This document shows positions 1 to 9,445 of a stretch of DNA of 9,445 bases, in pieces; positions within the stretch are counted from its first letter, which is position 1, and each line of letters starts with the position of its first letter. The notes below the pieces were generated by a model. It was not told the DNA's origin, ran no database searches, and saw only the letters and a program-made list of their open reading frames with translations. Origin of the DNA: Deltaproteobacteria bacterium (GTDB lineage: Bacteria; Desulfobacterota; Desulfobulbia; Desulfobulbales; BM004); NCBI GenBank assembly GCA_019312985.1, contig JAFDCC010000114.1, forward strand, positions 1-9,445. The letters run 5' to 3'. The translations under genes were made by a program, and so were the position numbers.

Positions 1-220
1 CTTTCTAGAAAAAGCCAGGGTCTCGCTTCTCACCGAACGGCGGCTTCGGGCACCTTACGGCCTCGCCGGCGGGGAAAAGGGGCTGCGCGGCACAGACGAA
101 CTAATCCGGAACGGGCGGAAGAAAAAACTGAAAGGCAAGGTGGGGTTTGAGGCGGAAGCCAATGATCTTCTGGTCATCCGGACTCCCGGCGGTGGTGGGT
201 GGGGGCGGGCCATCGACTGA
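1..220 (+). CDS. hyuB: Hydantoinase B/oxoprolinase family protein, C-terminal fragment
   Basis: Only the last 72 codons are in the window (frame starting at base 2, stop TGA 218-220). The fragment contains RRLRAPYGLAGGEKG followed near the end by the glycine-rich TPGGGGWG. These two elements are the characteristic C-terminal signature of the HyuB/5-oxoprolinase B-subunit family (Hydantoinase_B, PF02538), which with HyuA carries out ATP-dependent hydrolysis of hydantoins, N-methylhydantoins or 5-oxoproline. A hyuA partner would be expected upstream, outside the window. The gene runs toward the minus-strand genes that follow and ends in an intrinsic terminator, so it is the last gene of its transcript. 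Substrate specificity cannot be read from this fragment. Confidence 0.85.
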   Translation, partial: FLEKARVSLLTERRLRAPYGLAGGEKGLRGTDELIRNGRKKKLKGKVGFEAEANDLLVIRTPGGGGWGRAID

Positions 221-240
221 GACGGCCCGCCCTTTTCTCT
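203..240 (+). terminator. Intrinsic terminator overlapping the hyuB stop codon
   Basis: A perfect 9-bp GC stem pairs GGGCGGGCC (203-211) with GGCCCGCCC (224-232) around a 12-nt loop that contains the TGA stop (218-220). It is followed by TTTTCTCT. The left arm encodes the last residues of the protein, so coding sequence and terminator are superimposed. Only the plus orientation has a T-run. Confidence 0.8.
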
Positions 241-274
241 AAATCAACAGGAAAAATCTTCGAAAGGAAATCAA

Positions 275-520
275 TCAGACCAGAACACACTCTCTTTTCT
301 GTTGTATGATGGTCTGCATTTCCTGCTTGGTCAACACGGAATTTTCGGCCTTCAGCATGTAGACGATGCAGTCCTTGCAGATGTTGAAGGCCTTTCGATA
401 ATCATCCACTTCACTGGCAATTTCCCAGCAGTTCATGTCAGGGTGTTTCCGGGCCGGGCAGTTTTCCGTCCCCGTACACTTCATGATCTCCCAACAGGGC
501 AAGTCGCTTTTTGGTACCAT
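275..520 (-). CDS. Small two-CW domain protein (cysteine-rich)
   Basis: This 81-aa protein has cysteines at 9, 15, 21, 31, 48, 51 and 78. It carries two Cys-Trp-Glu motifs (CWE at 9-11 and 31-33), a CPA at 21-23 and a CxxC at 48-51. The pattern matches the 'two-CW' small proteins and modules frequent in deltaproteobacteria, also seen attached to chemotaxis and signalling proteins; their function is not established, and metal or Fe-S binding is only inferred from the cysteines. There is no signal peptide or membrane segment. The ATG start is preceded by a strong GAGGGGGGA ribosome binding site about 8 nt upstream. It lies 98 nt beyond engB on the same strand, so it may be the last gene of the his-engB transcript or have its own promoter in the AT-rich gap. 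Confidence 0.75.
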   Translation of the reverse strand: MVPKSDLPCWEIMKCTGTENCPARKHPDMNCWEIASEVDDYRKAFNICKDCIVYMLKAENSVLTKQEMQTIIQQKRECVLV

Positions 521-618
521 TCACAATCCCCCCTCAATTTGAGTCAATCTACCTGAAACCACTCGTTAAAATTTAGTTTACCCATTTATTGCTCCATCGG
601 CGAGTTGCCAATTAACCA

Positions 619-1218
619 CTAAAGAAGAAAGCTGTCAAGAGCATGAAGAAGATTATCTCTGCCCATGCCTGTTCTCGCTGAAAACACGAGCCGTTCAGCC
701 GTTTTAACCCCGAAGCCGGCATCAAGGGCAGCAGCATTTTTACTGCGCTGGTTGGCCGACAACTTATCGGCCTTGGTGTAGACCAGGATAAAGGGGACGC
801 CGGTCTGCCGCAGCCAGGTTACAAGCTGCAGGTCCGCCGCCTTGAGTTCATGCCGCAGGTCGACAATGACAACGACACACCTGAGGTTTTCCCTGGTTTC
901 AAGGTACCGGGTTATCAAATCCTGCCAGGCGGCCTGCATCTTTTTCGAGACGCGGGCATAGCCGTACCCCGGCAGGTCGACAAGGTAGAAACAGGTATCT
1001 ACCTGGAAATAATTAAGGCTCTGGGTCTTGCCCGGCCGGGAACTGGTCTTGACAAGATTTCTGCGCTTGATCAGCCGGTTCAGCAGGCTTGATTTGCCGA
1101 CATTGGAGCGGCCGGCAAAGGCGATCTCCGGAATCGCCGGCGGCGGGAGATCCCGGAGGTCAAAGATGCTGGTCAGGAACCTGACATCAGCAAAACTCTG
1201 GCTGGAAAAATGCGTCAC
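619..1218 (-). CDS. engB: Ribosome biogenesis GTPase EngB (YihA/YsxC)
   Basis: A 199-aa TRAFAC-class GTPase of the usual EngB length. Visible motifs are G1 GRSNVGKS (36-43), the G2 region PGKT (62-65), G3 DLPG (81-84), G4 TKAD (148-151) and G5 SAR (180-182). The family acts in late assembly of the 50S ribosomal subunit and is essential in many bacteria. The predicted start is GTG and lacks a good Shine-Dalgarno sequence. The frame stays open back to the hisG stop, and an AGGGG lies upstream of in-frame ATT/CTG codons (1239-1234), so the N-terminus could be slightly longer. It lies 51 nt after hisG on the same strand, consistent with co-transcription. All catalytic motifs are intact. Confidence 0.96.
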   Translation of the reverse strand: MTHFSSQSFADVRFLTSIFDLRDLPPPAIPEIAFAGRSNVGKSSLLNRLIKRRNLVKTSSRPGKTQSLNYFQVDTCFYLVDLPGYGYARVSKKMQAAWQDLITRYLETRENLRCVVVIVDLRHELKAADLQLVTWLRQTGVPFILVYTKADKLSANQRSKNAAALDAGFGVKTAERLVFSARTGMGRDNLLHALDSFLL

Positions 1219-1269
1219 AGGGGTCGTACCGTTCAGAATAAAAGCGCCCCTGACCTGTATACAACCGGG

Positions 1270-2142
1270 TCAGATGACCTTGTTCAGCCCGTACTCGATG
1301 ATGCCTTCCGCGCCGTTTTTGATGAGTTTTGGTATCAGTTCCCGCACCTGGTGCTCCGAAATGACCGTTTCGAGGGAATACCAGTCAGTGTTATAAAGGT
1401 TTGCGATGGTCGGCGCATTGAGACTCGGCAGGATTGCAATGACACTGTCGAGGCTGGTCCCGGGCACATTCATCTTCAGGCCCACGATTTTGTCCGCCCG
1501 GAGGGCCCCCTTGAGCAGCAGGACGATATTTTCAATCTTCTCCCGTTTCCAAGGGTCTTCCCAGGCACTCCTGTTGGCAATGAACTGCGTGTTTGATGTC
1601 ATCATCTCGTGGATGATCCGCAGGCCGTGCGCCCTGATGGTGCTCTCTGTCTCCGTCACCTCGACAATGGCATCGGCGAGACCAGATACCACCTTCGCCT
1701 CCGTGGCGCCCCAGGAGAATTCTATATCGACATTGATCTTCTTCTGCTCGAAAAAGCGGCGGGTATAGTTGACAAGTTCCGTGGCCACTTTTTTTCCTTC
1801 AAGGTCCGCCAGTTTCTTAATAGCCGAATCGCCCGGAACCGCCACGACCCAGCGCGTCGGTCTCTTGCTCACCTTCGAGTAGATGAGGTCGGCAACAACG
1901 ACTACATCAGATTCATTTTCAAGTATCCAGTCCCGCCCGGTAATCCCTGCATCAATGACGCCCTGCTCGACATAACGCGACATCTCCTGCGCCCTGCATA
2001 TGGAACAGACCAGCTCATCATCATCAATCTCCGGGAAATAACTCCGCTGCGAAAGTTTTATGCGCCAGCCTGACTTTTCAAAGAGTTCAATGGTTGCCTT
2101 TTCCAGGCTGCCCTTTGGAATTCCCAATTTCAATACGCTCAT
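1270..2142 (-). CDS. hisG: ATP phosphoribosyltransferase, long form
   Basis: This 290-aa protein catalyses the first step of histidine biosynthesis, condensing ATP with PRPP to phosphoribosyl-ATP. Residues 1 to about 210 form the bilobed catalytic domain, starting with LGIPKGSL (6-13) and including DAGITGRDW (64-72). Residues from about 215 form the PII-like HisG_C regulatory domain (LKMNVP at 222-227, GAEGIIE at 278-283), which in long-form enzymes mediates histidine feedback inhibition, so no HisZ subunit is needed. The PRPP-loop region reads TETEST (163-168), where a glycine is usual at 166 (TETGxT); the enzyme may be altered or this may be a lineage variant. The start ATG overlaps the hisI stop as ATGA, implying translational coupling. 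Confidence 0.95.
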
Positions 2143-2681
2143 TTCCTGTATACCTCTTCGGGATCAAATACGGGTTTGTCAATTGTCTGCAATCCTTCCC
2201 GGCTCACCTTCCTGTAAAAACAGCTGCGGTGGCCGGTATGGCAGGCTGCCCCGCCAAGCTGTTCAATCTGGTAAACCACCGTGTCCGCATCACAGTCCAC
2301 GAGTATGTTCCGGATACGCTGCAAATGCCCGGAAGTTTCTCCTTTCAGCCACAGTTTGTTCCTTGAACGGCTCCAATAGTGAGCCTTGCCTGTCTCCAGG
2401 GTCTTTTCCCAGGCAAGATCGTTTATATAGGCGAGCATCAGCACCTCTTTAGTTTCATAATCCTGCACTATCGCCGGGAGCAAACCGTTGTTCTTGTCAA
2501 ATTGCAAAGTTACCATTCCGCCCTCTTTTTTCGCTGCCTCTTCCGGTTCGTTGTCACCCTGTTCCCCGTCCATGAAATGGATAATGCAGGCCGAGCGGAA
2601 CTTGCAGTACTCCTTCGGGTGACTGCAGCGTATTTTCTCGCCGCTCACCTTTTCCTTATATTTTTCACAAAAAAAATCCAT
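2139..2681 (-). CDS. hisI: Phosphoribosyl-AMP cyclohydrolase with N-terminal four-Cys extension
   Basis: From ATG 2681 the protein has 180 aa. Residues 56-180 are a full-length HisI cyclohydrolase, which opens the adenine ring of PR-AMP in histidine biosynthesis. Visible features are [17 protein letters not shown] (103-119), the Mg-binding DCDAD (129-133) and the Zn-ligand cysteines Cys130, Cys147 and Cys154 in DCDAD and CHTGHRSC. No HisE pyrophosphohydrolase domain follows. Residues 1-55 are extra: Cys at 5, 19, 26 and 32 (CSHPKEYC, then CKFRSAC) plus an acidic linker. A second ATG at 2516 has GAGGG (2521-2525) 4 nt upstream and would give the standard 125-aa enzyme, so one or both starts may be used. 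The frame is also open to GTG 2783, but that segment looks non-coding. The 3' end overlaps hisG by 4 nt. Confidence 0.9.
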
Positions 2682-2942
2682 TGTGCCGCACTCGCTTCCC
2701 GGGGCAGGATCTGCCAGGTTCCATGCCGGTGTCGGCGGCAGACCGGCTTGCCAGCCGTTTCGCCTTTCAGCCGAGGGCGACACCGTATCATATTTCCCGG
2801 CAAATCTCTACAATTACCTTTGGCCCGGCCGCGGGAAAGCTCTTCGGCCGGCTGTCAGGCAATACCGGGTTCCAAAAAGTGCTTGACAGCGGCCGCTTTT
2901 CATAATTCTCTTTGCAGGCAGAAGAGTGTCCCTGGAAGGAAA

Positions 2943-2964
2943 CACCGGGCAGAGGTGCCCGGTG
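2943..2964. repeat. Perfect 9-bp hairpin in the divergent leader region
   Basis: CACCGGGCA (2943-2951) pairs perfectly with TGCCCGGTG (2956-2964) around the 4-nt loop GAGG. On the minus strand the stem is followed by TTTCCTTCC, so it could be a weak terminator or attenuator shielding hisI from antisense transcription. On the plus strand A-rich sequence follows, so there it would only be a leader structure. Confidence 0.55.
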
Positions 2965-3044
2965 AGAAAAAGTACAAGTGCGACAGCAGCGCCCTTTGCC
3001 TGAAGAGTCGCGCAACAGTTTTTCCCCCGGCAGCAACAGCCGGC

Positions 3045-3050
3045 AAGGAG
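3045..3050 (+). promoter_or_regulatory. Ribosome binding site deciding the selenoprotein start
   Basis: AAGGAG lies 7 nt before the ATG at 3058, a near-ideal spacing. The ATG at 3052 is only 1 nt away and is too close. This site supports translation beginning upstream of the in-frame UGA, not at GTG 3205, which has no comparable site. Confidence 0.75.
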
Positions 3051-3057
3051 CATGGCG

Positions 3058-3627
3058 ATGACACAGCCCATAGCGTGGCAAAAGGACATGACCAGGGCAC
3101 TTGCCCGGGCGGATGAAAAACAGCTGCCGATCCTGCTCTTTTTTAAGAATCCGGACTGACCTGGGTGCCGGCAGCTGGATGCGGTTACGTATCCCGAGAC
3201 AACGGTGAAACGTTTTGTCCTGGAACATTTCATCCCTCTCATGGTTCCCTTTGATGCCAAACCCCTGTCCAGGGACTTTAATATCAAGTGGACCCCGACC
3301 CTCATAACCCTTGGTTCTGACAGGCGGGAACACCACCGAACGGTCGGTTTCCTCGATCCGGACGGTTTTGTCGCCAATGGACTGCTTGGCATCGGCAAGT
3401 ACCATTTTGACAACAGCCGTTACCGGGAGGCCGTCGCTTCTTTTGAAGAGGCTTTGACACTGCAGCCGGAGGGCAACTGTGCTGCAGAGGCCATTTTCCT
3501 GAAGGGAGTCTCACTTTACAAAATAAGCGGGGACCGAAAGCCTTTAAAGGAGGTTTACGAAACCCTGCAGCAACGCTTTCCTGACAGCGAGTGGGCCGGG
3601 AAGGCAGAGCCATATCGCCAGTTTTAG
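3058..3627 (+). CDS. Selenocysteine-containing thioredoxin-fold/TPR protein (UGA at 3157-3159 read as Sec)
   Basis: Read through the TGA at 3157-3159, the gene encodes 189 aa. Residues 1 to about 105 look like a thioredoxin_7/DsbD-gamma type fold: an N-terminal helix (WQKDMTRALARADEK), a hydrophobic strand (LPILLFFKNPD), then U34-P35-G36-C37 exactly where the CxxC motif belongs. A helix RQLDAVTYPE follows, then the cis-Pro loop W78-T79-P80 and a last strand ending RTVGF. Residues about 108-180 form two TPR-like helical pairs. There is no signal peptide, so a cytoplasmic thiol-redox role is inferred; the partner is unknown. The start ATG has AAGGAG at 7 nt. No other stop interrupts the frame. 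I recall Cys- or Sec-containing relatives in deltaproteobacteria. The alternative is a nonsense mutation (TGC to TGA) or sequencing error; the placement of UGA at the redox cysteine argues against that. Confidence 0.85.
3157..3188 (+). promoter_or_regulatory. Selenocysteine UGA codon and candidate bacterial SECIS hairpin
   Basis: Just after the UGA, bases 3165-3169 and 3171-3173 can pair with 3180-3185 and 3187-3188 (GC pairs, one A-U at the loop end, one G-U, bulges at G3170 and U3186), closing a 6-nt loop GCTGGA (3174-3179). Bacterial SECIS elements sit directly downstream of the UGA and carry a G in the first positions of the apical loop for SelB; both hold here. The loop begins 15 nt after the codon, at or slightly below the usual range. 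Folded by eye only. Confidence 0.5.
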
Positions 3628-3634
3628 CACCCGG

Positions 3635-3666
3635 CCGCAAGGGCAAAGCTTGCCGCGGTGTTTCTC
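3635..3666 (+). terminator. Probable terminator between the selenoprotein gene and thiL
   Basis: CCGC (3635-3638) pairs with GCGG (3655-3658), and, after a 3-nt bulge AAG, GGCAA (3642-3646) pairs with TTGCC (3650-3654) around the loop AGC. TGTTTCTCC follows. It starts 7 nt after the stop codon and lies between two convergent genes. The bulge and interrupted T-run make it a weak example. Confidence 0.45.
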
Positions 3667-3667
3667 C

Positions 3668-4681
3668 TCAGTCCCGGAAATGGTCGTATCCCTGGTAGGT
3701 GATCTCACTCCTTTTGGACCCCTCCTGCAGAAAGACCCCCCGGCCGGCCGTTATCCTGCCGACCGCGAAAATTTCCCCCTCATTCTTTTCCCGCACCAGG
3801 GCCCGCAGCGCAGCCTCATGTTCCGGTGCCGCGGTAAAGAGAAGCTGGTAGTCTTCGCCCCCCCTGAGAACCCAGTCCAGAACCGGCATCTGCAGTTCTG
3901 CCGCCGCAGCTTCCAAGTCCTCAGAGACGGGGAGGGATTCCCTGGCAACCTCTGCCCCTGTGGAACTTTCCTCGCACAGGTGCGCCAGGTCGGTTGCCAG
4001 GCCGTCGGAAATATCCATCATTGCATGGACGAGGTTGCTTGCTGCAAGAATATTGCCGAGACCTATCCGTGGCTCCGGCGCCTGGTGGGCCCCGACAAGC
4101 CCCTTCCACTTTTGCAAGGCATTACGGCCCAAAGCGGCACGGCACAGGGCAAGCCCGGCTGCCGCATTGCCGAGGACACCGCTGACAAATACCAGGTCGC
4201 CGCTAACTGCACCACTGCGGTAGATGACCGCGTCCCGGGCCGCCTCACCGATGATGGTCACCGTTATGCTGCAGTCACTGGAACTTTTCACCGTGTCACC
4301 GCCCACCAGCATGACTGCATATTCGCCGAGCATTGCAATAAAACCGGCCAGGAAATCATCGAGCCACGTCGGCGCTGAAGCGGGAAATGCCAGGTTCAGG
4401 AGGGCAAAGCGAGGCTTGCCGCCCATTGCGGCGATATCGCTGAGGTTGACGGCCGCCGCTTTCCTGCCGACGAGGGCAGGGGGATGCCAGGCCAGATCAA
4501 AATGCACCCCTTCGACCAGGGTGTCAGTGCTCACCAGGAAACAGTTGCGGCTGTCCTTGTTTATTACCGCACAGTCATCCCCTATTCCCCTGACAACTTC
4601 CCCGTCCGGAGGCAACCTGAGAAGGGAGACGACATGGGCGATAATGTCCCGCTCGGATTTCATGCGCCTTTGACTCATCAT
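3668..4681 (-). CDS. thiL: Thiamine-monophosphate kinase
   Basis: ThiL phosphorylates thiamine monophosphate with ATP to the active cofactor thiamine diphosphate. The 337-aa protein belongs to the AIR-synthase (PurM) superfamily. It shows the ThiL motif series: GIGDDCAVI (32-40), STDTLVEGVHF (51-61), NLSDIAAMGG (79-88) with substrate- and Mg-binding acidic residues, VGGDT (126-130), MDISDGLATDL (222-232), and a late RGGEDYQLLF. Length is typical. The start is uncertain: ATG 4681 lacks a Shine-Dalgarno sequence, and an in-frame ATG at 4663 (MKSERDII) preceded by AAAGG aligns better with where the family usually begins. It is the last gene of the minus-strand run, 18 nt after the 121-aa protein gene, and converges on the selenoprotein gene. 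Confidence 0.95.
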   Translation of the reverse strand: MMSQRRMKSERDIIAHVVSLLRLPPDGEVVRGIGDDCAVINKDSRNCFLVSTDTLVEGVHFDLAWHPPALVGRKAAAVNLSDIAAMGGKPRFALLNLAFPASAPTWLDDFLAGFIAMLGEYAVMLVGGDTVKSSSDCSITVTIIGEAARDAVIYRSGAVSGDLVFVSGVLGNAAAGLALCRAALGRNALQKWKGLVGAHQAPEPRIGLGNILAASNLVHAMMDISDGLATDLAHLCEESSTGAEVARESLPVSEDLEAAAAELQMPVLDWVLRGGEDYQLLFTAAPEHEAALRALVREKNEGEIFAVGRITAGRGVFLQEGSKRSEITYQGYDHFRD

Positions 4682-4699
4682 CGCTGCACCATGCCGCGG

Positions 4700-5065
4700 C
4701 TACTTTACCCGCCGCAGAGACATTTTTTCTTTACTCTTTTTCTGTTTTGCCGGGGCCGGCTCCGGCCGGTCGGCGCCGAAATCAACCGCCTGCATGAACC
4801 GCTCTTCCCCCTCCATGGTAAAGATCTCCTTGCCGGTCATCTGTTCCGACCGCAATATCCAGGTGACCTTTTGCAGTGGCAGGGACAAAATGCACATGGT
4901 CACCTTCCACCATTCGTCACGCTTGGACTCATCCCGGGCAATGTCATTTATCCGGGCATAGACAAGCATCTGGGGTTTTTGGGCAGCGATCAGGACAATA
5001 TCGCCAGCCGCAACCGTATCTTTGAACCGGACCAGTTTTTTTAACTCCGCTACCAGTTTATTCAT
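4700..5065 (-). CDS. Uncharacterised 121-aa protein
   Basis: I do not recognise a named family. The protein begins with a short amphipathic helix (MNKLVAELKKLVRF). It continues with a likely beta-rich core containing GDIVLIAAQKPQMLVYARINDI, WWKVTMCILSLPLQKVTWIL and the GKEIFTMEGEERFM segment. It ends in a basic, low-complexity tail (about residues 98-121) rich in Pro, Ala and Lys. No signal peptide, transmembrane segment or metal motif is visible. The absence of strong bias and tight packing (14 nt after comM, 18 nt before thiL) argue for a real gene. The Shine-Dalgarno sequence is weak (AAGAAG). The core could be a small beta-barrel (OB- or PilZ-like), but this is only a guess from the strand pattern. 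Confidence 0.7.
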   Translation of the reverse strand: MNKLVAELKKLVRFKDTVAAGDIVLIAAQKPQMLVYARINDIARDESKRDEWWKVTMCILSLPLQKVTWILRSEQMTGKEIFTMEGEERFMQAVDFGADRPEPAPAKQKKSKEKMSLRRVK

Positions 5066-5079
5066 GACTTCTTTTCGCG

Positions 5080-6615
5080 TCAGTTTTCCATGGATCCCTC
5101 GAACCGCCGGTACTGGACAGCTTCGGCGATATGAGCCGCCTGTACCGATTCAGACCAATCAAGATCGGCAATGGTGCGCCCAATTTTCAGGATCCTGTGA
5201 TAGGAACGGGCCGAAAGGCCGAGCCTTTCAACCGCATTTTCAATGAGTTTTTCCGAAGCCCTGTCCAGGGCACAAAAGGCCTTAATATCCCTGGGGGTCA
5301 TCTGGCCGTTCGAGTGGTAATGATGCCGCCCGGCAAATCTCTCTTTCTGGCGCTTCCGTGCCCTTTCAACCTTCTCCTTTATAACGGCGGAAGGCACCCC
5401 CTTCTGTGCCGCCGCCATTTTGCTGTAGGGCACAGACGGCACCTCGAGGTGCATATCTATCCTGTCCAGGAGCGGCCCGGAAAGCCTGCTCTCATACCGC
5501 TGCACTTGGGCCGTGGTGCACCTGCAGCTGTGTTTCATATCACCAAGATAGCCGCATGGGCAAGGGTTAAATGCGATGACCAGCATAAAGCGGGACGGGA
5601 AACTGAGTGAGCCGGTGGCCCGTGAAATCGTCACCATGCCGTCCTCAAGCGGCTGTCTCAGAACTTCCAGGACATTTTTCTTGAACTCGTGGGACTCATC
5701 AAGAAAGAGGACGCCGTTATGGGCCAGCGAGACCTCCCCCGGCCTGGGGACCTGGCCGCCGCCGATGAGGCCTGCATCAGAGATGGTATGGTGCGGCGCC
5801 CGAAACGGCCTCGTGGTGACGAGCGGGGTCCTTCCCTGCATCAATCCCATGACACTGTATATCTTGGTGGTTTCCAGGGCCTCGTCAAAGGTCAGGTCAG
5901 GCAGGATGGTGGGAAGCCTTCTTGCCATCATGGTCTTGCCGGCACCGGGCGGTCCCTTCATCAGGATGTTGTGTCCCCCGGCCGCGGCAATCTCCATTGC
6001 CCGCTTGACATGCTCCTGGCCCCTGACCTCGTCAAAATCAACGCCGTAATCGGTATTGTCCTGGAAAACCGCGTCGAGATCAATGGACCGGGGGTGAAGT
6101 TCCCTGGTGCCGGCAAGGAATTCAACGGCCTCATACAGGGTTTTTACCCCGATAATTTTTATGCCGCTGACAACGGCCGCCTCTTCCGCATTGGCCAACG
6201 GCACCAGGATGCCTTCCAGGCCGTTATTGCGGGCCGCAATGGCCATGGGCAGAATACCCTTTGCCGGACGGGTGGACCCGTCGAGGGAGAGCTCACCCGT
6301 GACGCCATAACTTGCCAGCTTGGCACTGGAGAGGATTTCCGCCGCGGTCAGAATACCCAGGGCAATGGGGAGATCGTAGCCGGTCCCTTCCTTTTTCAGG
6401 TCTGCCGGGGCGAGGTTGACGGTAATCCTGCGGTTGGGAAAATCGTAGCCGGAGTTCTTGATGGCGGCCTTTACCCGTTCCCGGCTTTCGCGGACCGCGC
6501 CCTCGGCCAGCCCAACGGTGGCAAATCCAGGCAGACCGTAAGAGATGTCCACCTCCACCGTTACCGGCCGCGCATCGACACCAACCACTGCAGAACTTCT
6601 GATTTTTGCAAGCAT
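5080..6615 (-). CDS. comM: YifB/ComM family Mg-chelatase-like AAA+ ATPase
   Basis: A 511-aa protein, matching the 500-510 aa family norm. Residues 1 to about 170 form the N-terminal Lon-like/ChlI fold (SYGLPGFATVGL at 25-36, NLAPADLKKEGTGYDLPIALG at 67-87). The AAA+ core has Walker A GPPGAGKT (221-228), Walker B GVLFLDE (301-307) and NPCPCG (350-355), with RLSGPLLDRID at 377-387. The C-terminal Mg_chelatase_C domain covers about 400-505. ComM is a hexameric helicase that promotes branch migration during natural transformation, but homologues are widespread in bacteria not known to be competent. I chose ATG 6615 (MLAKIRSS) because it matches the family start and has GGGGGG 6 nt upstream; the frame extends 30 codons further without support. 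Walker B continues as ESHEF where ELPEF is usual. Confidence 0.95.
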   Translation of the reverse strand: MLAKIRSSAVVGVDARPVTVEVDISYGLPGFATVGLAEGAVRESRERVKAAIKNSGYDFPNRRITVNLAPADLKKEGTGYDLPIALGILTAAEILSSAKLASYGVTGELSLDGSTRPAKGILPMAIAARNNGLEGILVPLANAEEAAVVSGIKIIGVKTLYEAVEFLAGTRELHPRSIDLDAVFQDNTDYGVDFDEVRGQEHVKRAMEIAAAGGHNILMKGPPGAGKTMMARRLPTILPDLTFDEALETTKIYSVMGLMQGRTPLVTTRPFRAPHHTISDAGLIGGGQVPRPGEVSLAHNGVLFLDESHEFKKNVLEVLRQPLEDGMVTISRATGSLSFPSRFMLVIAFNPCPCGYLGDMKHSCRCTTAQVQRYESRLSGPLLDRIDMHLEVPSVPYSKMAAAQKGVPSAVIKEKVERARKRQKERFAGRHHYHSNGQMTPRDIKAFCALDRASEKLIENAVERLGLSARSYHRILKIGRTIADLDWSESVQAAHIAEAVQYRRFEGSMEN

Positions 6616-6643
6616 GACTATCCCCCCGCAACGCGCCAGCGGT

Positions 6644-7396
6644 CTAGGGCCGGTAGCAGGATGCCATCTCCGCTGAAAAATCACCTCCCGGCGCCTGGTA
6701 AACATGAAAGGGCGGAAGCACTAACAACTCCTCACCGCCCCCCTTGACCGCCTCGACGAGAAGCAGGGCGGCTGAACTTGCGGGGTAGCTGTACACCGCC
6801 TGCAACTTCTTGGGCTCCAGACCCTGCTTTTTGAGTTCATAAAGGAGCGTCGCCCCCCGTGATGCCGGGTAAATGAAGGCGCCTCTCCCCTTTTTTTTCA
6901 GGGCCCAGGCGGCAGCTCTGACAACACTGGCGACATCGGCCGTGATTTCATGCCGAGCCATGAGCTTTTCCGCTTCACTGTTTTGCCTCCCTGTGCCCTT
7001 CTTTCTGTAAGGCGGGTTGCTGACGAGGCAGTCAAATTGCCCGGCCCCCAGCAGCAGATCAATGCGCCGCAGGTCGCCCTCCATGATCCTTATCCGCTCC
7101 TGCCAATTATTGAGGGCTACATTTTCCCGGGCCAGCTTTACCAGGGCCGGCTGGAGCTCAAGGCCGGTAAGCTGGGAGGAGGGGTTCCTGTATGCCAGGA
7201 TGAGCGCGACAATACCGCTGCCGCACCCCAGGTCAAGAATTGTCTCCCCCGGCCGGGTGGCTATAAAGTGGGCCAGCAGAACGGCATCGAGAGAAAAGCG
7301 GTAGCCGCGGCGGTGCTGCAGACAGCGGATGCGTCCGTCAAAAAGGGAGTCATCGGTATACGCAGCCTGTCCTGGCATCGCCTGCCACCCTGTCAT
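6644..7396 (-). CDS. TrmN6-like tRNA1(Val) (adenine(37)-N6)-methyltransferase family protein
   Basis: A 250-aa class I SAM-dependent methyltransferase. Motif I LDLGCGSG (54-61) binds SAM, GLELQ (78-82) is the acidic ribose-binding position, and the NPPY motif (127-130) is the active-site signature of enzymes that methylate an exocyclic amino group. The N-terminal segment QHRRGYRFSLDAVLLAHF (27-44) is typical of the TrmN6/YfiC family, which makes N6-methyladenosine at position 37 of tRNA1(Val). Close relatives with the same layout have other RNA substrates, so the exact target is inferred. The start is ATG 7396 or 7378 (MPGQAAY); both have weak GCAGG-like sites. It lies 33 nt after the DUF1015 gene and 28 nt before comM. 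Confidence 0.85.
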   Translation of the reverse strand: MTGWQAMPGQAAYTDDSLFDGRIRCLQHRRGYRFSLDAVLLAHFIATRPGETILDLGCGSGIVALILAYRNPSSQLTGLELQPALVKLARENVALNNWQERIRIMEGDLRRIDLLLGAGQFDCLVSNPPYRKKGTGRQNSEAEKLMARHEITADVASVVRAAAWALKKKGRGAFIYPASRGATLLYELKKQGLEPKKLQAVYSYPASSAALLLVEAVKGGGEELLVLPPFHVYQAPGGDFSAEMASCYRP

Positions 7397-7429
7397 TGCC
7401 TGAAATGTTTTCCCTGCAGCCGGGAACGG

Positions 7430-8827
7430 CTACACGACAACTATCTTTTCCTCCGGTTCCAGCTTATTCAGCAGAAGGCCGGTGAGGATCTTGGGATAAA
7501 AATAGGTGGACTTATGGGGCATGATCAGGTTCTCGTCGGCGACCCGCTTCACCTGCAGCACCCTGGTATTATTCATGAGGAACAGGAGAGGCAGGACATT
7601 CTCGTCGGCAATGCTCTCCTTCACCGCCACGTCGAGGGCCTCGTCCGGGTCGGCAAAGTAGCGCACCAGGTTGTCTTGTTCACACCTGTCACATGCCATC
7701 TTTAATATCTGATCCACCACCAGGTCCGACAGGATGACCACATCAAGGTCGCGCAGTGCAGGCGGCCTGCCGGCCAGGGACCTGTTCTCCAGGGCCGCAT
7801 CCTTCAGGGTCAGGAGAAAACAACGGTCTTCCACCGGGTGGTACAGGCCGAACATGGTCCGTTTTTTCCTGCCCTGGACCAGGGCTTCCTCCATCCTGGC
7901 GAGGACCTCCGCCACCAGGTTCTCCCGCGCTCCACCGCAAATCTCCTCCAGCTCAAAGGATCCCGCCATCTTTGCCGCAAGTCCATCCATGGTTCCGAGA
8001 CCGGCAGCAACGATATCGGCCGGCAGCGACACCAGCCTGTGGGTCGGCAGGACCTTGAGGCCGGGGTCCTCCATGGGGCAGAGGTACATCATGACAAAAT
8101 TGTAGGGGCTATCGGCCGGCAGGCCGCCATGTTTCGCCGCCATCTGCTTTCTATACTGCAGTGCCGTCGAATACCTGTGGTGACCATCCGCAATGTAGAC
8201 GGCCTTGCAGCGGAAGTCCTGCTGCACCCGGGCAATAATTTCGGGGGCCGTCACGGGCCAGAGGCTATGTCTGCCGCCATCGGCATCCTTCACCTCGTAG
8301 AGGGGCTTTTCCGGAAGACCCTTTTCAAGAGTGCCTATTATGTCTGCCCCCTCGTCGGCATAAAGGGAGAATATCTGGCTGAACTGGGCCTGGCAGGTAT
8401 CCATAAGCCGCAAGCGGTCGGCGGTGACGGTTTTGAACGTCTCCTCATGGGGCCTGACCGTGCCTTCAGAAAATTCGGATAGACCGACAAGGGCAATCAG
8501 TCCCTTCCGGGTCAGACGGATGCCGGAGGGGAGTTTGTAATCGATGTAGTAAAGAAAGATTCCCGGGACCTCATCCTTGATAAGAACCCCTTCTTCCTGC
8601 CATTTGATAAAGTATCGCTTCGCCGAATCGTAGCGCTCCGCCGAATCATCTCCCTTCCCCGGCGACTTGCTGATGTCCAGGTAGATCATGTTGTACGGGT
8701 TCCTTGCCTGGAAGGTCTCCTGGTTTTTCTCGTCAATGATGTCATAGGGAGGCGTGACAACATCCTCGAGGTGTGCAATCTTTTCGGGGTTGAAACGGAC
8801 AGGCCTGAATGGCGCCACAATGGCCAT
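7430..8827 (-). CDS. DUF1015 family protein
   Basis: This 465-aa protein matches the DUF1015 family (PF06245), whose function is not firmly established. Diagnostic blocks are APFRPVRF (5-12), VVTPPYD (23-29), NPYNMIYLDI (43-52), RPHEET (125-130) and YIADGHHRY (211-219). The DGHHR block resembles the conserved loop of the ParB/sulfiredoxin-fold superfamily, which includes the archaeal free serine kinase SerK, so a nucleotide- or phosphotransfer-related role is possible but inferred. It is soluble, with no signal peptide. The start is well supported by AGGAAGGAG about 9 nt upstream of the ATG. It heads a five-gene minus-strand run, and its promoter should lie in the AT-rich gap shared with queD. 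Confidence 0.9.
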   Translation of the reverse strand: MAIVAPFRPVRFNPEKIAHLEDVVTPPYDIIDEKNQETFQARNPYNMIYLDISKSPGKGDDSAERYDSAKRYFIKWQEEGVLIKDEVPGIFLYYIDYKLPSGIRLTRKGLIALVGLSEFSEGTVRPHEETFKTVTADRLRLMDTCQAQFSQIFSLYADEGADIIGTLEKGLPEKPLYEVKDADGGRHSLWPVTAPEIIARVQQDFRCKAVYIADGHHRYSTALQYRKQMAAKHGGLPADSPYNFVMMYLCPMEDPGLKVLPTHRLVSLPADIVAAGLGTMDGLAAKMAGSFELEEICGGARENLVAEVLARMEEALVQGRKKRTMFGLYHPVEDRCFLLTLKDAALENRSLAGRPPALRDLDVVILSDLVVDQILKMACDRCEQDNLVRYFADPDEALDVAVKESIADENVLPLLFLMNNTRVLQVKRVADENLIMPHKSTYFYPKILTGLLLNKLEPEEKIVVV

Positions 8828-9042
8828 AGCGGGATACTCCTTCCTAGCGTATTCAAACTGCGGGAGATTCGGCAGAAAAGAGATCCTGCAACTCTTTCTT
8901 GCTCTCCTCCGCAGGGTTGATTATTCTGAATTTATAATTTAAAAAACCAGGTTCTGACCCTATTAAAAAAGCAATTTCTTTTCAACAATACTTTTACGAT
9001 TTAACCCTATTATTAATTATAACAGCGGCGGGGACTCATACC
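8828..9042. promoter_or_regulatory. Divergent regulatory region between the DUF1015 gene and queD
   Basis: This 215-bp gap turns AT-rich from about 8917. Plus-strand -10 candidates for queD are TATAAT (8933-8938, no clear -35) and TATAAC (9018-9023, with TTTACG at 8993-8998 and a 19-nt spacer). Minus-strand transcription toward the DUF1015 gene could use TTGAAA (8980-8985). A 9-nt direct repeat ACCCTATTA occurs at 8957-8965 and 9004-9012. A preQ1-I-like string starts at 8949. None of these is firm. Confidence 0.4.
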
Positions 9043-9414
9043 ATGTTTGACATCTTTATCAAAAGTCATTTTTCAGCCGGGCACCATTTACGGGATTATC
9101 CCGGCAACTGCGAAAGGCCCCATGGCCACAACTGGAAGGTGGAGGTCACGGTCAGGGCGACGGAACTGGACAGTCTAGGCATGGGAATAGATTTCAGGAC
9201 GGTCAAGGAGGCCGTCAACAAGGTGCTTAACAGCCTTGACCACCATAATCTCAACGAGCATCCCGATTTCCAGGCGGTCAACCCGTCCTCGGAAAACATT
9301 GCCGTCTTCATCTTCAATGAGGTGCAGCAGGAGATCGCTTCGGACCGCTGCAACGTTCACGCTGTCACTGTATGCGAAACCGACAACTCCGGTGTAACAT
9401 ATTTTGGTCCCTGA
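9043..9414 (+). CDS. queD: 6-carboxy-5,6,7,8-tetrahydropterin synthase (QueD)
   Basis: A 123-aa PTPS-fold enzyme that converts 7,8-dihydroneopterin triphosphate to 6-carboxytetrahydropterin, the second step of queuosine precursor (preQ0/preQ1) biosynthesis. The zinc site is formed by His14 (SAGHHL), His27 and His29 in PHGHNW. The catalytic cysteine is Cys23 in GNCERPHGHNW, with Asp66-His67 (LDHHNL) and Glu112 (VCETDNSG) completing the active site. The substrate-binding NPSSENIA (80-87) is present. Length is typical and all key residues are intact. A GGGGA site about 8 nt before the ATG supports the start. No other queuosine gene is visible beside it within the window. Confidence 0.95.
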   Translation: MFDIFIKSHFSAGHHLRDYPGNCERPHGHNWKVEVTVRATELDSLGMGIDFRTVKEAVNKVLNSLDHHNLNEHPDFQAVNPSSENIAVFIFNEVQQEIASDRCNVHAVTVCETDNSGVTYFGP

Positions 9415-9445
9415 TGCGCTGCTAGAAATCTCCGAGCTTTTTTAC

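Follow-up and report, generated by a model that had tools for sequence, protein, structure and literature searches.

A thioredoxin-TPR gene family of Desulfobacterota with a predicted selenocysteine codon at the redox site

In a 9,445-nucleotide stretch of a deltaproteobacterial draft genome (GCA_019312985.1, contig JAFDCC010000114.1, positions 1 to 9,445, forward strand; the whole stretch is referred to here as the window), a gene for a thioredoxin-fold protein is crossed by one in-frame UGA codon at the first position of its redox motif. Comparison with related genes indicates that this codon, at 3157-3159, is very likely read as selenocysteine (Sec). The fuller reading, in which the UGA is read as Sec under the direction of a downstream hairpin and the product is a thiol-disulfide reductase with a docking tail, is, taken as a single statement, likely to be right.

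The gene appears to represent a widespread family of selenium proteins that is missing from current catalogues, and one in which Sec is far commoner than Cys and the selenolate redox site shares a chain with a tail predicted to dock proteins. If Sec is confirmed, the databases contain a large set of proteins truncated at the active site, among them 105 of the 120 relatives listed. This one small protein would then allow a test of why selenium is worth its cost to anaerobes in thiol chemistry, and the dense series of hairpins would offer a natural experiment on the evolution of SECIS elements within coding sequence.

One reading frame and one domain across a UGA codon

The gene runs in a single frame from ATG 3058 to the TAG at 3625-3627 (Table 1), and its only in-frame TGA, residue 34, lies in the context FFKNPD-U-P-G-C-RQLDAVTYP, with W78-T79-P80 downstream. 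A sequence-only reading of this DNA had placed that TGA at the first cysteine of a thioredoxin CxxC motif, followed by PGC, and the sequence bears this out. The same reading took an AAGGAG site as support for an upstream start, and we agree: ATG 3058 is the preferred start because the other in-frame ATG (3052) is only 1 nt from AAGGAG. Two further statements held in part. A product of 140 residues from GTG 3205, said to be all that gene callers would report, does stand in the list of open reading frames, yet the closest database entry, P0006, which shares 95% identity with the window protein, has 128 residues and begins where ATG 3241 lies; and U-P-G-C is the motif of the window gene, whereas that usual among its relatives is U-I-G-C.

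Table 1. Features of the gene in the window
Feature	Positions	Strand	Basis
AAGGAG ribosome-binding site	3045-3050	+	Sequence; 7 nt 5' of ATG 3058
Whole gene, 189 residues, U at 34	3058-3627	+	Sequence; frame conserved among relatives
Thioredoxin-fold domain, residues 1-100	3058-3357	+	Pfam Thioredoxin_2 above cut-off; AlphaFold2 model
In-frame UGA, predicted selenocysteine codon, residue 34	3157-3159	+	TGA in 119 of 131 distinct related loci
TGC, Cys37, second residue of U-x-x-C, predicted resolving thiol	3166-3168	+	Invariant in 75-row alignment
SECIS-type hairpin: stem 3177-3183/3188-3194, loop GUUA 3184-3187	3177-3194	+	Fold, pair counts, synonymous-codon conservation
T79-P80, predicted cis-Pro loop facing redox site	3292-3297	+	Invariant in 75-row alignment
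TPR-like helical tail, residues 101-188	3358-3621	+	Sub-cut-off Pfam TPR matches; model helices; TPR chains among structural matches

The claim that one continuous thioredoxin-like domain spans the TGA is upheld by the Pfam model Thioredoxin_2 (PF13098), which matches residues 19-105 across the codon at 41 bits against a cut-off of 27 (with C written for U), and by protein conservation on both sides. An AlphaFold2 model (pLDDT 97.8, pTM 0.92) likewise contains a thioredoxin domain followed by a TPR tail, with U/C-x-x-C (residues 34-37) at the start of a helix that spans residues 35-44. The proposed pairing of thioredoxin fold and TPR-like helices is therefore confidently modelled; Pfam TPR models match residues 106-177 below their cut-offs, and TPR chains are present among the structural matches to the model. 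By eye, no signal peptide is evident in the window protein.

Relatives carry TGA or cysteine at the same column

Related loci came from a contig search (20 loci), from the 96 nearest genomes, 47 of which gave any match and 36 a TGA-bearing one, and from 395 genomes of the phylum, where 271 gave any match, many of them short or confined to the TPR region. The 145 loci analysed are the listed matches of at least about 50 bits, of which 131 are distinct once 14 repeats are dropped; two weaker matches were treated apart as a separate short family. Across the 395 genomes the gene is found in many families of this one phylum, and three loci from the 20-locus contig search are titled Nitrospirota or Nitrospinota. 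Plasmid records searched with the protein gave no match.

Homologues had been expected to hold C or U at the column of residue 34, and TGA or Cys is what they hold in all but three cases: the codon is TGA in 119 of the 131 distinct loci, TGC in nine, and GTG, GAA or GAG in the others, so that Sec (as TGA) is far commoner than Cys. Two of the nine TGC loci are 69% (L112) and 43% (L111) identical to a TGA locus; the other seven are remote (31-37%), and six of those seven lack the second Cys. The TGA proteins (n=118) have a median pairwise identity of 46%. Over the 31 codons 5' of the TGA, differences per pair at codon positions 1, 2 and 3 average 7.6, 6.3 and 16.1 (465 pairs), and the stretch before the TGA therefore evolves as coding sequence. 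In a 75-row alignment W7, F29, U/C34, G36, C37, T79, P80, G97 and L163 are invariant.

Some genomes have two or three copies of the gene (L143, L164, L165; L166, L167), and divergent copies read U-G-A-C, U-T-G-C or U-G-S-C, with shorter tails in L164 and L165. The GAA locus (L122, in genome G036) is an apparent frameshifted remnant in which the hairpin stretch is intact and the frame around the TGA position is off.

A hairpin downstream of the UGA

The hairpin of the window gene has 7 bp, a GUUA loop, 24 nt between UGA and loop, and a folding energy of -10.4 kcal/mol. Published bSECIS limits are a loop of 3-9 nt, a stem of 4-16 bp, a spacing of 16-37 nt, a G in the first two loop positions and an energy of -7.5 kcal/mol or lower (PMC13188914, section 5), and the window hairpin lies within these loop, stem, spacing, G and energy limits. 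Its 21-nt core, which was picked after the fact, has a z of -3.5. Over 62 nt around the window TGA, folding is not significantly stronger than in shuffled sequence (z -1.08). Rfam, searched permissively, gave no match in the window, and ARAGORN found no tRNA in it.

Among the TGA loci the six core pairs are complete in 106 of 119 and incomplete in 13, and in all 119 the second base of the six-base loop region is G. Folded singly, two further variants, L141 (-7.0 kcal/mol) and L147 (-6.6 kcal/mol), lie above the -7.5 limit. Pairing holds in 95.3% of cells across 111 distinct rows of 42 nt, and four of the six pairs include double changes; double-changed cells number 31 against 6.1 +/- 2.0 in shuffles, a kind of count that relatedness inflates. 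When the register is slid, 21-64% of cells are paired; double changes again affect four pairs in the +2 and +3 registers, and 21 cells are double-changed at +3, but only 31% (+2) and 24% (+3) of cells pair there. Folded as a consensus, the 111-row alignment gives a shallow structure of -3.39 kcal/mol, to which covariation contributes -0.39. Within the hairpin stretch, synonymous codons are frozen at +7 (GAT in 74 of 82; z -24), +9 (GTT in 78 of 109; z -15) and +10 (ACG in 93 of 96; z -23); elsewhere most tested codons are near background, and those beyond z -5 are at -26, -6, -4, +2, +5, +11 and +47.

Truncated database records and the ordinary decoding of UGA

A protein search found 794 database relatives; among the 120 listed, 105 begin past the TGA position, and the full-length ones include ten with W and five with C at the column. 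Records of this kind would be expected if the TGA were an ordinary stop that ends a 33-residue peptide, with the remainder a separate protein started downstream, and in many relatives an ATG does follow the TGA at a distance of six codons. That ATG is equally accounted for as Met40 of the motif U-x-G-C-Q-Q-M. Moreover, the stretch ahead of the TGA shows protein-level conservation and completes half of a thioredoxin fold, full-length Cys relatives exist, and a stop codon predicts neither the preference for TGA over TAA and TAG in 119 loci nor a hairpin. We regard termination at this codon as very improbable.

The ten listed proteins with W at the column (P0007, P0011-P0013, P0018, P0068, P0097, P0103, P0107 and P0109) could speak for the reading of TGA as tryptophan. 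None of their contigs exceeds 1373 bases, and one of the proteins, P0013, differs at just 5 of 186 positions from a TGA locus; because of these two circumstances the W probably stems from a gene caller that applied code 4 to a TGA. Tryptophan would also destroy the redox site, and other relatives have Cys at the column, so that we find decoding as tryptophan scarcely credible.

Selenium machinery of the genome

Sec use had been offered as an inference from the sequence of the gene, and it is supported here by the TGA/Cys column, by the covarying hairpin and by the selenium genes of the same genome, a draft of 1,587,681 bases in 299 contigs that is 61% complete. A search for selA, selB, selC and selD, as had been suggested, turned up selA, selD and part of selB but not selC. 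Over the NCBIfam cut-offs are selA (618.9 bits), selB (298.5 bits; residues 1-257 of 581, truncated where its 3493-base contig ends) and selD (340.2 bits; L187:977-2026). The last has an in-frame TGA of its own at the motif CGUAAK, and from its sequence selD is likely to be a selenoprotein itself.

The search for tRNA-Sec (selC) in the 61%-complete genome matched only other tRNAs. Three relatives of the genus (G005, G004 and G003) have tRNA-Sec within about 32 bases of glyQ (recognised by eye), and in the window's own genome glyQ runs off the start of its contig (C3), so the expected selC site is cut by the contig end. Under stricter filters, the genus members without tRNA-Sec over the cut-off are this genome together with G001, G002 and G006-G008. 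In G002 the contig (C334) ends 100 bases after the glyQ match, in G006 the match lies 93 bases in from the start of contig C65, and the glyQ search gave no match in G001, G007 and G008. The glyQ-selC site thus seems to be a weak spot of assembly in the genus.

More widely, tRNA-Sec over the cut-off occurs in 30 of 36 TGA genomes, compared with 86 of 96 genomes overall. In a second set it occurs in 24 of 28 TGA genomes (exactly at the cut-off in G383) and in five of nine genomes whose fetched copies are without TGA. This co-occurrence is consistent with Sec decoding but is weak evidence, because most genomes have tRNA-Sec anyway.

Relation to known thioredoxin-fold proteins

The C-terminal (gamma) domain of DsbD and the protein DsbH belong to exported or membrane systems. 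Both have Cys and no TPR tail, whereas the window protein is predicted to have Sec and such a tail. The NCBIfam models TsoB, VPGUxxT type 2 and Trx7/PDZ represent a related thioredoxin module and match the window protein, but far below their cut-offs (29.2 against 805, 27.9 against 275 and 18.5 against 300 bits, respectively); TsoB, DsbD and VPGUxxT models match many of the 75 family members in a comparison of which cut-offs were not part. Scanned against NCBIfam 20.0, neither the window protein nor any of three relatives scored up to the cut-off of a model.

In layout the closest known protein is CnoX/YbbN (PDB 3qou), likewise described as a thioredoxin fold with TPR (PMC6282202), the fold being N-terminal and the TPR C-terminal in one chain. 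Searched with the whole model, Foldseek ranks it first (E 3.9e-6), a likeness of layout only, with TM-scores of just 0.40/0.28, 13% identity, and 282 residues against 189. Its site is SxxC or WCxPC, that of the window protein U-x-G-C. The chain 3qou is absent from PDB sequence matches to the window protein at E up to 1 and from the 50 VIA-align structural rows listed.

Among catalogued selenoproteins, WP_011366075.1, a 'thiol:disulfide interchange protein', shares PF13098 and UxxC with the window protein (Table 1 of PMC13188914), a likeness by label only; its entry there lists no TPR, whereas the window protein has a predicted TPR tail. The gene could belong to that catalogued family, with only the tail and the breadth unreported. 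Both the Pfam domain and the type of motif agree, and the family has been recorded in two Geobacter species and in Syntrophus aciditrophicus (PMC1794560), while one relative of the window gene (L025) is titled Syntrophaceae. Against this, the entry, judged by description and not by sequence, names no TPR, and a family in the same phylum that has U-P-H-C and no TPR is a fair candidate for it. We consider membership in the catalogued family unlikely.

That short U-P-H-C thioredoxin (L180, within 2-778, minus strand; L181:275-613, minus strand) has an in-frame TGA at the same site as the window gene, but has about 113 residues and no TPR tail, and is 26% identical to the window protein. It has 161 database relatives; many of the 120 listed are 74-residue truncations, and some are named thiol:disulfide interchange protein. 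A protein of the catalogued kind, with PF13098 and an in-frame TGA, was sought in 14 genomes of one family, and none was found.

The window gene thus apparently belongs to an uncatalogued family among thioredoxin-fold selenoproteins, which are themselves a known kind, the catalogued PF13098 entry having been compared by description. The table of a 2026 review, with 119 families and subfamilies, names no thioredoxin-TPR selenoprotein, and 'TPR' and 'tetratricopeptide' are absent from its main text (PMC13188914). Among the papers listed by literature searches, none describes such a protein in its title or the opening of its abstract, which leaves its absence from the literature unproven. The authors of one prediction method caution that selenoproteins lacking Cys relatives may escape it (PMC12013277), a blind spot that would bear on a Sec-rich family such as this one.

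A possible reductase with a docking tail

On the reading that we prefer, SelB with Sec-tRNA would decode the UGA at residue 34, and the predicted SECIS hairpin, its loop 24 nt downstream, would direct the insertion. The U-P-G-C site would then act as a cytosolic thiol-disulfide reductase: the Sec34 selenolate would attack a disulfide or an oxidised thiol of a substrate, Cys37, facing the T79-P80 loop, would resolve the selenenyl-sulfide, and a conventional reductase would recharge the protein. Much as a small chaperedoxin would, the protein may use its TPR tail to dock a substrate or partner. Neighbour families, none of which recurs in more than 6 of 21 loci, do not point to either. For this role as a reductase with docking, the balance tips slightly in favour.

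The Sec protein might instead serve mainly in sulfur or selenium handling (reduction of persulfide, polysulfide or selenite), its TPR tail holding a metabolic enzyme. Desulfobacterota are a phylum rich in sulfur metabolism, and many carriers of the gene belong to it; the excess of Sec over Cys in the gene family points the same way. Yet no sulfur or selenium gene stood out among ten annotated neighbour proteins, and neighbour families recur in at most 6 of 21 loci. Such a role is possible but doubtful.

A more specific form of the reductase reading can be put forward tentatively, and we would not expect it to hold. The protein would be a dedicated seleno-chaperedoxin, a compact cytosolic thioredoxin-TPR protein with Sec almost obligatory across Desulfobacterota, whose TPR tail grips clients while the selenolate carries out repair. 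If true, the repair of oxidised or sulfur-modified clients would form a selenium branch of protein quality control in anaerobes, one hidden by annotation that cut off the active site.

Gene neighbourhood

A conserved neighbour was sought over 21 sources and 21 loci. Besides the gene itself, which in several loci was hidden beneath a longer frame on the opposite strand, no family occurs in more than six. The groups that reach six are the frame antisense to the gene, proteins of PAS/histidine-kinase type (one of them identified) and receiver-like proteins (recognised by eye). Five of the 21 sources share ThiL- and Mg-chelatase-like neighbours, which close relatives would be expected to do, and in 3 of 20 loci the gene follows one of FKBP type (one checked).

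Two other genes of the window are of separate note. A small Cys-rich protein with two CWEI motifs is encoded at 275-520 (minus strand) and has no Pfam match at E up to 1e-5. At 2139-2783 (minus strand) lies a HisI-type protein with PRA-CH at residues 116-190 and a Cys-rich N-terminal extension, with which two relatives (L019 and L020) cluster by position and type.
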